Shown one piece after another: positions 1-12,891 of a stretch of DNA of 12,891 bases (the stretch's first letter is position 1; each line of letters starts with the position of its first letter). Source of the DNA: a bacterium (GTDB taxonomy: Bacteria; BMS3Abin14); the NCBI GenBank assembly GCA_029210545.1, contig JARGFV010000075.1:1-12891 (forward strand), written 5' to 3'. A program made the translations under genes and the position numbers. Below the pieces are notes generated by a model that did not search any database, was not told the DNA's origin, and was given only the letters and a program-made list of their open reading frames with translations.

Positions 1-182
1 TCAGCGATCCGTGAGGGAAGGGAAAACCACGCTTTTCCCTTCCCGTGGAGCCAAAGTCTCGCACAGACTTTGGTGATTTATCAGCAGTCATTGTAAGGAA
101 AGGGAAAACGACGCTTTTCCCTTTCCCCAGGGCATTAATGAGCCAGGAAAAGTCCCGCCTGGACTTTTTGCGACCCTGTCAA
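1..182 (+). repeat. Multi-hairpin intergenic repeat, two tandem units, cut by window start
   Basis: Two units of a hairpin element lie upstream of psd. Unit 1 has a perfect 12-bp stem (15-26 with 33-44, loop CCACGC) and then a perfect 9-bp stem (51-59 with 65-73, loop CGCAC). Unit 2 has a perfect 12-bp stem (97-108 with 115-126, loop CGACGC) and an 8-bp stem (148-155 with 161-168, loop CGCCT), followed by the tail GCGACCCTGTCAA. The same order of stems, near-identical loops and the GCGACCCT tail recur at 10600-10714 and 10757-10871, and in inverted form at 12851-12891. The text just before the first stem (ATCCGTGAG) matches the end of another hairpin in those copies, so the element starts outside the window. 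No T-run follows the stems, so these are not ordinary terminators. I do not know a name for the family. Confidence 0.8.
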
Positions 183-245
183 GATTGAGGGGGAAAACGA
201 TCATATCAGCACCGCCCTGCAAAATGGCTCGATGAAGCTTTTTGA

Positions 246-261
246 GAGGTTGTCAAAAATG
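246..261 (+). promoter_or_regulatory. Ribosome binding site that favours the ATG at 259 for psd
   Basis: GAGGT at 246-250 lies 8 bases before ATG 259. The in-frame ATG at 232 has no Shine-Dalgarno-like sequence close upstream, only a GA-rich stretch about 40 bases away. This is the basis for placing the psd start at 259. Confidence 0.55.
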
Positions 262-897
262 ACTATGCCCAGGGTCGCCCGGATAGGGGTCGCTTTCGCC
301 GCGGGTCCCGCCGCCGTATCGGTGCTTCTGCTCTTGTCGGGACTTGTTGTCCCCGGAGCCGTGGCCGGTGTTGTGGCCCTTGCGGTGCTCCTTTTCTTTC
401 GTGATCCCGAGCGGATCGCAACGGTCGCCGACGGGGACCTCCTGTCGCCCGCCGACGGCCGTATCGTGGCCGTGGACACCGGGGAGGAGAACAGGTTCCT
501 GGGCGCCCCGGCGCTGAGGATCAGCGTTTTCATGAGTGTTTTCAACGTTCATGTCAACCGGATCCCCGCCGACGGCACGGTCCTTTCCGTCAGGCACGTT
601 CCAGGCGGGTTCGCCATGGCCCACCTGGACGATGTCGGGGTCATCAACGAGAGGACCGAGATCCACATGGAGGACGAAAAGGGACGGCAGTCCCTCATGG
701 TACAGGTGGCAGGTCTGGTGGCCAGGAGGATCATCTGCCGTCTGCGGGCGGGTGACGAGGTGAGGCGGGGCGAAAGGTTCGGCCTTATCTGCTTCGGTTC
801 ACGGGTGGACCTGTACATTCCGACCGAGGCGATCCCCAACGTGAAGCTGGGAGACAGGGTCACCGCGGGCAGAACCGTTCTCGCGAGACTGGTATGA
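259..897 (+). CDS. psd: Phosphatidylserine decarboxylase proenzyme (short, PSD-A type)
   Basis: This enzyme removes CO2 from phosphatidylserine to give phosphatidylethanolamine at the inner membrane. It is 212 aa from ATG 259, or 221 aa if ATG 232 is used. Residues 10-47 are hydrophobic and can form the membrane anchor. Family motifs are SPADGRI (63-69), FNVHVNRIP (95-103) and FGSR (179-182). In this family the chain cuts itself between Gly180 and Ser181, and Ser181 becomes the pyruvoyl cofactor; Asp66 and His98 are the likely partners in that step. The length fits the short bacterial/archaeal class rather than the roughly 320-aa E. coli type. Its stop overlaps the pssA start (ATGA), so the two consecutive steps of the pathway are translationally coupled. 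The identity is firm; the start is less certain. Confidence 0.93.
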   Translation: MTMPRVARIGVAFAAGPAAVSVLLLLSGLVVPGAVAGVVALAVLLFFRDPERIATVADGDLLSPADGRIVAVDTGEENRFLGAPALRISVFMSVFNVHVNRIPADGTVLSVRHVPGGFAMAHLDDVGVINERTEIHMEDEKGRQSLMVQVAGLVARRIICRLRAGDEVRRGERFGLICFGSRVDLYIPTEAIPNVKLGDRVTAGRTVLARLV

Positions 898-8956: not shown

Positions 8957-9299
8957 AAATTCGTGACAGCGTGTGTCCGTGGAGCGTAGTGGCATAAAAT
9001 CATTGTGAAGCGTGAATGCGTAGAGAAAAAACGTGATTGCGTGAACGTGTGAGTGCGTGGATGCGTAAAGGAAAAAACGTGATCGCGTAAAGCGTGAAGC
9101 GTGGAGGCGAAAAGGAGCGCACGTGAATGTTTAGTGCTCTTTCTCACACACGCACTTACGGATATACGCACATACGCACAAACGCACTTACCCACCTGCG
9201 TACAAACGGAAACACGGAGACACGGACACAACACGCACCTACGGACAAACGGATAAATGCACACACGCACGTGTGAACACAGAGGGGAGGCAACAGGAT
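8957..9299. repeat. 343-base low-complexity gap, GTG-rich left half and CAC-rich right half
   Basis: No gene is seen here. From about 8996 to 9115 the + strand consists of loose 7-8 base repeats around GCGTGAA or GCGTAAA, broken by two A-runs (GAGAAAAAAC near 9023 and GGAAAAAAC near 9070). From about 9142 to 9275 it consists of repeats such as ATACGCAC and ACACGGAC. The two halves are therefore roughly reverse complements and could fold into one long imperfect hairpin centred near 9125-9140. The last part, CACAC-GCAC-GTGTG, is a small palindrome just before the lysC ribosome binding site. I see no clear promoter, lysine riboswitch or terminator. Reading frames on either strand here give only repetitive peptides. 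Confidence 0.6.
9164..9227 (+). repeat. Eight contiguous degenerate octamers, consensus near AWACGSAC
   Basis: Sixty-four bases divide exactly into eight units of eight. The first three are ATACGCAC, ATACGCAC and AAACGCAC. The later ones drift through TTACCCAC and CTGCGTAC to ACACGGAG and ACACGGAC. The unit boundary never slips, which argues for tandem duplication followed by point changes. CACGGAGACACGG (9213-9225) recurs exactly at 12637-12649. Confidence 0.7.
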
Positions 9300-10576: not shown

Positions 10577-10599
10577 GCTTCCGCATTGCGCCTGGGAAC

Positions 10600-10714
10600 G
10601 GCGCCCGGATAAATGATGCGAAGGAAAGTCATTTATCCGTGAGGAAAGGGGAAACGACGCTTTCCCCTTTCCGGTGAGCAGGAAGTTCCGCCAGAACTTT
10701 CTGCGACCCTAACA
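10600..10714 (+). repeat. Hairpin repeat copy A, 115 bp, identical to copy B
   Basis: Three stems lie in series. Stem 1 is GGATAAATGA (10607-10616) with TCATTTATCC (10629-10638). Stem 2 is a perfect 12-bp pair (10643-10654 with 10661-10672, loop CGACGC). Stem 3 is an 11-bp pair (10678-10688 with 10694-10704, loop CGCCA) with one G-T pair, followed by the tail GACCCTAACA. A short GCGCC/GGCGC stem (10588-10592 with 10600-10604) precedes it. All 115 bases equal copy B, 157 bp downstream. Confidence 0.85.
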
Positions 10715-10761
10715 GTTGATGACGGCACTGGAGAGTCATCAACGCGCCCCGCTCGGGGCGC
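10715..10761 (+). repeat. Two further hairpins linking repeat copies A and B
   Basis: GTTGATGAC (10715-10723) pairs perfectly with GTCATCAAC (10735-10743). GCGCCCC (10744-10750) pairs perfectly with GGGGCGC (10755-10761) around the loop GCTC. The second stem occupies the same place before copy B that GCGCC/GGCGC holds before copy A, with different bases but kept pairing. The hairpins therefore follow one another almost without spacers. Confidence 0.7.
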
Positions 10762-10871
10762 CCGGATAAATGATGCGAAGGAAAGTCATTTATCCGTGAG
10801 GAAAGGGGAAACGACGCTTTCCCCTTTCCGGTGAGCAGGAAGTTCCGCCAGAACTTTCTGCGACCCTAACA
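10757..10871 (+). repeat. Hairpin repeat copy B, 115 bp, abutting the cimA leader
   Basis: This is base-for-base the same as 10600-10714. Its third stem ends at 10861, 14 bases before the cimA Shine-Dalgarno (GAAAGG, 10875-10880). If cimA is transcribed from upstream, its 5' leader would carry the whole hairpin series. The exact identity of copies A and B points to a recent tandem duplication. Confidence 0.85.
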
Positions 10872-10889: not shown

Positions 10890-12488
10890 ATGGCCGCGAA
10901 AAACAAAGATCGTGTCGTCATCTATGATACCACGCTGAGGGACGGTACCCAGGCGGAGGAGATCAGCCTGCAGTTGATCGACAAGGTCGCTATTTCCCGC
11001 AAGCTTGACGAACTGGGTGTCGATTATATCGAGGCCGGCTGGCCCGGCTCCAATCCCAAGGACATGGAGTTCTTCGCGAAGACCAGGGATATCAGCCTTT
11101 CCAACGCCCGGTTCGCCGCTTTCGGGTCCACCCGCCGCAAGGGGATCAGGGCTGCCGATGATCCGCAGATCAAGGCTCTCCTGGACGCGGCCGATGTGAT
11201 CACCATCTTCGGAAAAAGCTGGCACCTTCATGTCAAGGAGGCCCTCAGGACGACCCTCGAGGAGAACCTTGACATGATCAACGATTCGGTGGCCCATCTC
11301 AAGGCCAACGCCGACATCGTGTTCTACGACGCCGAACACTTTTTCGACGGCTACAAGGACAACCCCGAATACGCTCTTAAAACCCTCGAAGCCGCCCACG
11401 ATGCGGGGGCGGACTGCCTCGTCCTGTGTGACACCAACGGCGGGACCCTTCCCGCCGAGATCCAGGCCATCGTACGGTCGGTGCAGAAGAGGCTGCCCGG
11501 GGCCCGGATCGGGGCCCACATGCACAACGACTCCGAGTGCGCGGTAGCCAACAGCCTGCTTCTCATCGAGCAGGGGGGGCGTCATGTCCAGGGCACCATG
11601 AACGGATGGGGCGAGCGGTGCGGCAACGCCAACCTCTGCTCCATCATCCCATCGCTGATCCTCAAGAAAGGGCTCACCTGCGGCGTGGATGGAAAACGGC
11701 TGGCGCGGCTCCGCGAGATCTCCCGCACCATCGCCGAGATCGCCAACATGAGCCCCTATTCCCACCAGCCTTTCGTCGGGCGCAGCGCCTTCGCCCACAA
11801 GGGCGGCGTCCACGTTTCTGCCATGCAGAGGAACCGGGAGACCTATGAGCATATCGACCCGGACCAGGTCGGGAACCGGACCCGCGTCCTCCTTTCCGAC
11901 CTTTCGGGCCGGAGCAACGTCATCTTCAAGGCCAGGGAGTTCGGGATCGAGATCGACGAGAAGGATCCCGCCATCGCCGAGGTCCTCGAACAGATCAAGG
12001 ACCTGGAGAACCGGGGCTTCCTCTACGAATCGGCCGAAGGGTCCTTCGAACTCCTCCTGAAAAAAGCCCTCGGGCGCCACCGGCGTTTCTTCGGTCTCGT
12101 CGGGTTCAGGGTCATCGACGAAAAACGGGAGTGGGACAAGCCGCCCCTGTCCGAGGCCACCATCATGGTGGAGGTTGACGATCACGTGGAGCACACGGCC
12201 GCGGTCGGTCAGGGTCCCGTTGACGCCATGGACGCGGCCCTGAGAAAGGCGCTGACCAAGTTCTACCCGGTCCTGGCGCACGTGAGGCTCATCGATTTCA
12301 AGGTCAGGATCCTCCCCGAGGACAAGGGCACTGCCGCCGTGACCAGGGTCATCATCGAATCCGGCGACAACGAGACAAGATGGTCCACCGTTGGTGTTTC
12401 CGCCAATATCCTCGAAGCCTCCTGGCAGGCCCTCGTGGATTCCATCGAGTACAAGCTGCTCAGGGAAGAGGAGGCGGGACGGCTGTAG
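10890..12488 (+). CDS. cimA: (R)-citramalate synthase, Geobacter GSU1798 type
   Basis: CimA condenses pyruvate with acetyl-CoA to (R)-citramalate, the first step of threonine-independent isoleucine synthesis. The 532-aa protein has the DRE-TIM metallolyase barrel: [13 protein letters not shown] (12-24, with Arg17-Asp18), the metal ligands His210 and His212 in HMHNDSE, and [14 protein letters not shown]-terminal LeuA-type dimerisation/regulatory domain follows from about residue 395. It differs from the LeuA at 1805-3352 in having GTQAEE instead of GEQSPG and [14 protein letters not shown] instead of [14 protein letters not shown], which mark the citramalate synthase subgroup. GAAAGG at 10875-10880 lies 9 bases before ATG 10890. 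Its product needs LeuCD and LeuB, encoded upstream in this window. Feedback by isoleucine is likely from family knowledge. Confidence 0.93.
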
Positions 12489-12504
12489 GGGCGTGCCACG
12501 CCCC
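12488..12504. other. GC-rich palindrome just after cimA
   Basis: GGGGCGTG and CACGCCCC are perfect inverted repeats with one central base, starting at the last base of the cimA stop codon. Allowing a loop of three leaves a 7-bp GC stem. No T-run follows, so a Rho-independent terminator is not well supported, though some termination or pausing is possible. Confidence 0.45.
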
Positions 12505-12513
12505 GTACCGTGA

Positions 12514-12545
12514 GGGGGCGAGGGGGAGAAGGGGAGATGGGGAGA
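12514..12545 (+). repeat. Four contiguous G-rich octamers, possible G-quadruplex
   Basis: The units are GGGGGCGA, GGGGGAGA, AGGGGAGA and TGGGGAGA in unbroken register. They give four G-runs of 5, 5, 4 and 4 bases with loops of 3, 4 and 4 bases, which fits the standard quadruplex pattern on the + strand and so on a cimA read-through transcript. The structure is an inference. Confidence 0.6.
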
Positions 12546-12549
12546 AAAA

Positions 12550-12626
12550 ACGACCGGACGACGGAGCGACTGAGCGACCAGGATCACTACTCAGAACCAA
12601 GAACCTGGAATCCGGAACCCGGAACC
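12550..12626 (+). repeat. Further 7-8 base arrays: CGACGG-like, then NRGAAYC heptamers
   Basis: Positions 12550-12579 divide into units of 8, 7, 8 and 7 bases built on ACGACGG / AGCGACT. After 12 unrelated bases, 12592-12626 divides into five exact heptamers of consensus NRGAAYC (for example AAGAACC and CGGAACC twice). Neither resembles coding sequence. Confidence 0.6.
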
Positions 12627-12850
12627 CTCTACTCACCACGGAGACACGGCTTGTCACGCCATAGCTCGAAGAGCGACGGCGGAAGAAAATCGGAGAAAGG
12701 CATAAATGCGGGGGAAGGCGCGGTTCCTGTAAAGGCGGCAAGAGCGGATTCACCACAGAGCTCATCACGCCTCTGGCGTGACAGGCGTCGGACACGGAGG
12801 AAGGCCAGGAACTGGGGTAATGCTTGTCTTCGCGAGCTCAATTATGATAG
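12627..12850. other. Gene-free region with a degenerate CACCAC-GAG / TCACGCC repeat and hairpin
   Basis: No gene is seen. CTCACCACGGAG (12632-12643) followed by TCACGCC (12655-12661) is repeated loosely as TTCACCACAGAG (12749-12760) followed by TCACGCC (12765-12771). In the second copy TCACGCC and GGCGTGA form a perfect 7-bp stem (12765-12771 with 12775-12781, loop TCT). In the first copy the downstream bases contain GCTC-GAA-GAGC. The stretch CACGGAGACACGG at 12637-12649 also occurs at 9213-9225. Confidence 0.45.
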
Positions 12851-12891
12851 AGTCGCAAAAAGTCCAATCCGGGACTTTTCGCTCCACGGAA
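12851..12891 (-). repeat. Inverted partial copy of the hairpin element, cut by window end
   Basis: Read on the minus strand this matches the third-stem part of the units at 1-182, including the lead-in CGTGGAGC and the following TTGCGAC. The stem pairs 12855-12865 with 12872-12882 (10 of 11 pairs, one A-C mismatch) around a 6-base loop. The lead-in continues off the window, so the 12-bp stem expected next lies outside. Confidence 0.65.

Follow-up and report, generated by a model that had tools for sequence, protein, structure and literature searches.

The DNA analysed here (the window) is one whole contig, C75, of 12,891 nucleotides, from a 2.72-Mb genome (G000) assembled in 241 contigs. Its genes, all on the + strand and named from Pfam matches, are psd, pssA, leuA, leuC, leuD, leuB, hom, apgM, lysC and a cimA-like gene. 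Two hairpin units stand upstream of psd (11-180), two more between lysC and cimA (10588-10871), and a fifth is truncated by the right contig end (Table 1). What are these units, how did they reach their present positions, and why do their stems go on pairing while their letters change?

A sequence-only reading had reported five units, two at 1-182, one each at 10600-10714 and 10757-10871, and one inverted at 12851-12891. Hairpins were found at every one of these places, although only four count as units: the last is a 3' hairpin alone, because the contig stops inside the element, and the units at 10600 and 10757 are identical over 115 nt and thus constitute one observation, not two. The three versions of the 12-bp second stem described in that reading, GGGAAGGGAAAA in unit A, GGAAAGGGAAAA in unit B and GGAAAGGGGAAA in units C and D, all pair without a mismatch around a C(C/G)ACGC loop, and the third stem likewise still pairs through its changes (AAAGTCT, AAAGTCC, AAGTTC). 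Fold z-scores of the window units range from -2.9 to -6.8. Two parts of a full unit, its first hairpin (GTTGATGAC..GTCATCAAC) and its GC palindrome, are absent from the earlier list; unit C is without that first, 5' hairpin, H1. The fifth copy is preceded by AATTAT (12840-12845, + strand), which resembles an AANNTT target. The window copies are older, end-damaged members of their family.

Table 1. Hairpin units and the genes directly downstream of them in the window.
Feature	Position	Strand	Parts	Basis
Unit A	11..74	+	GTGAG lead; H3 15-26/33-44, loop CCACGC; H4 50-74	Fold; covariance model R1, 87.3 bits at 10-77
Inter-unit linker, TTATCAGCAGTC type	75..96	+		Sequence; same kind of joint in multi-unit copies elsewhere in the genome
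Unit B	97..180	+	H3 97-108/115-126; CCAGGGCATTAATGAGCCAGG linker variant 127-147; H4 148-155/161-168	R1, 53.0 bits at 92-174
Unit B, 3' terminal repeat	162-180	+	GACTTTTTGCGACCCTGTC	Terminal motif and its inverted-repeat role
psd	232..897	+	Phosphatidylserine decarboxylase; downstream of units A and B	Pfam PF02666, 2.5e-42
Unit C	10588..10714	+	GC hairpin (GCGCC..GGCGCC); H2 10606-10616/10629-10639; H3 10643-10672 (arms 10643-10654/10661-10672); H4 10678-10704; tail CGACCCTAACA	Sequence, fold; R1, 86.1 bits
Unit D (tandem copy)	10715..10871	+	H1 10715-10743; GC palindrome 10744-10761; H2 10763-10773/10786-10796	Sequence, fold; R1, 86.1 bits
Unit D, continued	within 10715..10871	+	H3 10800-10829 (arms 10800-10811/10818-10829); H4 10835-10861; tail CGACCCTAACA	
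cimA-like gene	10890..12488	+	Citramalate / isopropylmalate-synthase family; directly downstream of unit D	Pfam HMGL-like and LeuA_dimer
Fifth copy, 3' end only	12846..12891	-	H4 and terminal repeat GACTTTTTGCGACTCTATC (12846-12864 on the - strand)	

Two other stretches of the window are also repetitive. Positions 8960-9290, upstream of lysC, are of low complexity with short degenerate repeats (GTGAATGCGTAGAG.., ACGCACTTACGGATA..) and resemble decayed tandem repeats, and the non-coding tail at 12500-12840 contains pieces, such as GGAACCCGGAACCC and CACGGAGACACGG..TCACGCC, that resemble other dispersed repeats.

The units belong to a large family. A blastn search with one unit found 48 places in the genome, while the terminal motif GGACTTTTTGCGACYCTRTCA, allowing up to three mismatches, occurred 368 times (176 forward, 192 reverse); the same pattern read backwards occurred on neither strand. 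The covariance-model search that the sequence-only reading had proposed uncovered many more copies. Trained on 26 diverse copies, the H3-H4 model (R1) gave 225 matches at E<=0.01 within the 1.47 Mb sampled (some 54% of the genome); this count includes dozens of cases in which the H3 palindrome was read antisense, as well as partial copies where contigs end. Contig ends that fall inside the element are frequent in this assembly (for example C2:56, C13:57, C19:55 and the right end of the window), so the repeat is probably responsible for much of its fragmentation.

Complete copies measure 44-564 bp and carry no transposase gene. In the commonest class, of 154-155 bp, many copies read in register resolve into H1 (GATGGACTCGCAAAAAGTCCATC), a GC palindrome (GCGCCCCGCGCGGGGCGC), H2 (AAATCAATGAC..GTCATTGATTT), H3 (GGAAAGGGAAAA-CGACGC-TTTTCCCTTTCC), H4 (GCGAAAAGTCC..GGACTTTTTGC) and a tail (GACCCTATC); the consensus can alternatively adopt a cloverleaf fold in which the two ends pair to close it. 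The smallest forms, 44-46 bp, are the two ends alone without the H3-H4 core, and larger forms repeat either the GC hairpin with H2 or H3 with H4, in multi-unit arrays of up to about 560 bp. Among 36 copies of 150-156 bp the median pairwise identity is 0.91. Two loci (L040:14833-15011 and L047:10947-11122) have an H2 with an additional GTCATTAATTTGCGGGATAA segment and form a distinct subfamily of about 175 bp.

The ends of the element and the bases that flank them are those of a transposon. The terminal inverted repeats are about 19 bp long (GATGGACTCGCAAAAAGTC / GACTTTTTGCGACCCTATC), with ends given as 5' GATRGRGTCGCAAAAAGTC and 3' GACTTTTTGCGACYCTRTC, and the pair 5' GATRRACTCGCAAAAAGTC and 3' GACTTTTTGCGACYCTRTC was found in 89 copies in the 54% of the genome sampled. 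When the six bases 5' of the 5' end were compared with the six bases 3' of the 3' end, 30 of these 89 copies showed a perfect 6-bp duplication at AANNTT, against 1.4 on average, and 6 at most, in 5000 shuffles; within the 150-156-bp class the duplication was perfect in 18 of 36. Flanking repeats were in clear excess in the 6-bp register only, and a 7-bp target duplication was rejected because that register does not fit. Other genomes contributed 19 additional perfect 6-bp duplications.

An empty site is also available for comparison. When the flanks of the copy at L034:3181-3369 are joined with a single AACTTT, they match an uninterrupted paralogue of the host repeat (L072) at 127 of 130 positions without a gap, and a second paralogue (L085) at 116 of 130. 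Two additional occupied/empty pairs are consistent with insertion. The interrupted sequence is itself a second dispersed repeat family (L072:14047-14177, with paralogues in L085, L050, L081 and L012), which the element has invaded at least twice at the identical AACTTT/AAAGTT site (L034 and L084).

Together, the inverted ends, the duplication of fixed length (6 bp), the short body without a transposase and a resident insertion sequence with matching ends indicate that the repeats are very probably a composite MITE, a non-autonomous DNA transposon carrying structured hairpin modules. The insertion sequence, about 1665 bp long and the one intact example found in this genome, came from a DDE_Tnp_1 search (L257:1241-2905) and encodes a transposase of 520 aa with PF05598 (DUF772) and PF01609 (DDE_Tnp_1) domains. 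Its ends, GATGGACCCGCAATTAGTC and, on the opposite side, TACTTTTTGCGATGCCGTC, agree with the MITE end at 15 of 18 positions on the left and, in register and by eye, at 17 of 18 on the right; its own target repeat is imperfect (4/6, AACCTT/AATATT). Homologues of the transposase with 78-83% identity occur in two other genera (genomes G009 and G007), where the MITE end is matched at all 18 positions by the transposase-proximal ends, GACGGACTCGCAAAAAGTATC and GATGGCTTCGCAAAAAGTATC. From these ends we infer that a transposase of this type would move the MITE, and we note that no such homologue was detected in several element-rich relatives.

The classification of this candidate partner is less precise. 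Its best NCBIfam match is IS1182 (NF033551) at 116.3 bits, well under the cut-off of 270, so that it is not an IS1182 member by the curated test; ISNCY_1 scored more weakly. The combination of DUF772 and DDE_Tnp_1 is shared with IS1182-like and unclassified (ISNCY) insertion sequences, and the ISDol1 subgroup of ISNCY is presumably compatible with the candidate in size and duplication length. Searches for other partners returned no rve-type transposase in this genome and, among the loci examined, no case in which both sides had clearly matching ends; simple pairing of long terminal repeats flanked by a duplication and enclosing an ORF, in the sampled DNA of this genome and the loci of relatives, gave nothing convincing. 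A truncated IS1634-family transposase lies at a contig end (L252, G000:C154, 1291-2121, - strand) and adjoins the 5' end of a MITE copy.

The sequence-only reading had correctly seen an element that is dispersed, copied and structured, and had offered a REP-like non-autonomous mobile unit as one possibility. Non-autonomous and mobile it is; the REP-like part is contradicted by the inverted ends, the 6-bp duplication and the matching insertion sequence, all of which speak for a DDE transposase instead of a REP-associated tyrosine transposase (RAYT). The RAYT gene that the reading advised looking for does exist (L032, G000:C150, 1429-2118, + strand; NCBIfam REP_Tyr_transpos, 83.8 bits against a cut-off of 80), one element copy lies some hundreds of bases upstream of it, and the hairpins are preceded by conserved unpaired GTGAG/GTNGAG leads, all of which would suit REP/BIME-type repeats moved by a RAYT. 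Yet in a survey of this genome and 11 relatives the distribution of RAYTs does not follow that of the element: G001 lacks the element despite its two Y1 genes, G007 (98% complete) yielded 29 core matches but no Y1 gene, and in G006, G010 and G011 the element is present and a Y1 gene was not detected. No confident hairpin core was seen near the other Y1/RAYT loci scanned in the family. Thus neither the absence of target duplication that goes with HUH transposition nor RAYT genes that track or flank the repeats, as in REPs and REPINs, is observed here, and we regard a RAYT-driven origin as extremely improbable.

Among the genomes searched, the MITE is largely confined to one bacterial family. 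In a search of this genome and 60 relatives, the terminal motif was present in numbers (10 to 368) in 10 of 12 family members, host included, with two occurrences in one of the others and none in the last, whereas the 49 genomes outside the family had 0 or 1. Most public records carrying the exact motif are MAGs (among them SZUA-178, SZUA-204, ZodW_Metabat.265, CSMAG_1715 and PFL40), with single matches elsewhere; no virus-borne copy had the exact terminal motif, and none of three exact motif strings was found in the literature. The MITE family is new as far as these searches show; the kind of element is known, and is here unusually clear. Such ends may extend beyond the family, since in BMS3Bbin05, one of the public records with the motif, a 232-bp stretch (L127, 6376-6608) has similar ends (GACTGATTCGTAAAAAGTG / GACTTTTTACGACTCTGTC) and is flanked by a perfect duplication, AAAATT. 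Desulfobacterales records (L163, L181 and L195) contain single occurrences of a TACGA variant of this end.

Within the part of this genome taken as stretches (54%), on which all of our context statistics rest, of the 99 interior copies whose two neighbouring genes were called, 98 lie outside genes, as judged with a rough, purpose-made gene caller. Could the units be a conserved cis-regulatory leader RNA, of riboswitch or attenuator type, for the genes downstream? Among copies that we sorted by sequence into old and young, the older ones within 40 bp of a gene start face it by their 3' end in 11 cases and by their 5' end in 2, and in relative G008 some cores stand directly upstream of starts that read, from the protein starts, as rpmA, rplK and rplL (another core there adjoins a tRNA). 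However, young copies have no orientation bias and the downstream genes are functionally unrelated. Nor are the window's own insertions conserved: the lysC-cimA gap is 37-73 bp and devoid of the element in eight relatives, so that this insertion is lineage-specific and a conserved leader of cimA is rejected, and at psd the element is absent from most readable relatives, with different remnants in G004 and G009. The earlier statement that no named family was recognised agrees with Rfam, whose models gave nothing in the window at the gathering score and nothing relevant at E<=0.5 in seven loci. A leader RNA in this sense is thus very unlikely, and strong covariation by itself should not be taken as a new riboswitch class.

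The covariation is nevertheless real in the terms in which the sequence-only reading had framed its test, namely paired changes in excess of chance. Across 26 diverse copies from this genome, 97.5% of stem cells pair and double changes occur in 17 of 24 pairs, compared with 7.1 in shuffles, none of 500 of which reached any of five covariation measures. The 124 distinct rows from this genome (97.9% paired, double changes in 19 of 23 pairs) and the 109 distinct rows drawn from loci in other genomes (93.4% paired, 15 of 23 pairs) behave alike, with no shuffle of 500 attaining the observed value on any measure for own or cross-genera rows, although the structure guided the fitting of alignments A3 and A4, a bias in its favour, and the shuffles ignore relatedness. 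Sliding the partner columns by 1-3 positions destroyed the signal. Because the stems still pair as their letters change, the single-strand fold of the element is probably maintained.

Maintenance need not imply function. Template switching at quasi-palindromes during replication could copy one arm onto the other and keep stems perfect with no function needed, an account that opposes the part of our reading concerned with selection and leaves the MITE itself untouched. Long stems with short loops are its classic substrate, and in some variants several bases shift together (GGAAAGCGAAAA, GGGAACCGAAAA). Arm copying is strand-symmetric, however, and does not predict an excess of G-U over A-C on one strand, as selection on a folded top strand (RNA or ssDNA) would. 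On the H3-H4 strand we counted 90 G-U and 22 A-C among copies of this genome, and 61 and 23 among relatives without one lineage-specific pair (61 and 62 with it); these counts are a lead rather than proof, because the cells are not independent events. Moreover, a base pair inside the H3 loop, which switches between C-G, U-A and U-G beside a bulged C, is paired in 109 of 109 distinct relatives, and unpaired positions (the GT and GA leads and the triloop C) are conserved as well. Template switching as the whole explanation is therefore unlikely in our estimation. The strand-specific covariation of H3-H4 suggests selection on a folded transcript or single strand, and a structured RNA, another option named in the sequence-only reading, may still apply to these internal hairpins.

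How the core relates to the MITE ends is a separate matter. G008 has about 22 H3-H4 cores but only 10 terminal-motif matches, so the hairpin core and the MITE may have separate histories. A structured RNA or ssDNA element that existed independently before the MITE, and was then captured between the MITE ends as cargo, would account for the core arrays of G008, which start at the GC hairpin and have few terminal motifs, and for the bare-end MITEs of 44-46 bp. Against this, the completeness of the G008 assembly is put at only 81%, and cores without H1 may equally be end-deleted MITEs, because the right arm of H4 together with the tail is the 3' terminal repeat; capture is accordingly a rather improbable origin. 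We likewise hold it possible, and on balance doubtful, that the core is itself a functional structured RNA, a processing or protein-binding site spread inside MITE ends. Its features are a conserved, unpaired GUGAG lead, a C-(N)AC-G triloop by the bulged C and, possibly, an H4 closed by tandem G-A pairs. If so, a regulatory RNA domain would have been distributed by transposition through one bacterial family, with core-only arrays near ribosomal-protein and tRNA genes.

For the composite MITE, these observations suggest the following course of events. The DUF772 and DDE_Tnp_1 transposase would bind the MITE ends in trans and insert the unit at AANNTT sites in AT-rich intergenic DNA, and tandem duplication would add further modules. 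Less certainly, after insertion into leaders or between the genes of an operon the top strand would be transcribed and the H3-H4 fold kept by selection; the gain might be an insertion that does no harm to read-through or translation, or a means of setting mRNA processing. Standard transposition alone leaves the covariation of the internal stems unexplained. If that covariation holds on a tree, the transcript or single-strand fold of a MITE, and not its ends alone, would be under selection, and the strand-specific covariation of the internal hairpins is the part most worth specialist attention. Ends, duplication, empty site, candidate partner and covariation together make this a well-documented bacterial MITE in an uncultured family.

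Among known systems, REP sequences and the GTAG- and CGTC-tagged palindromes associated with RAYTs are short, intergenic and present in hundreds of copies, with unpaired tags beside their hairpins (PMC2817692, PMC3733652). The present element shares these traits and differs from REPs in its inverted ends, its 6-bp duplication and a RAYT gene that does not track it. Its nearest analogues are probably Chunjie and BOX. The Chunjie MITE of Geobacter uraniireducens is 178-235 bp long, with conserved ends, many partial copies and, in one case, an insertion in an operon; we liken the two by description rather than by end sequences, and the review passage on Chunjie mentions no multi-module arrays (PMC10969869). 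BOX elements of Streptococcus pneumoniae combine end modules with a variable number of internal tandem modules, would fold if transcribed, and have been proposed to be mobilised through the similarity of their ends to a resident insertion sequence (PMC3049150); the word 'compensatory' does not appear in that paper. The likeness to BOX is drawn from this composite layout of end and internal modules, whereas the 6-bp duplication at AANNTT, the four hairpins with a GC palindrome and the measurable covariation of the stems belong to the element described here.
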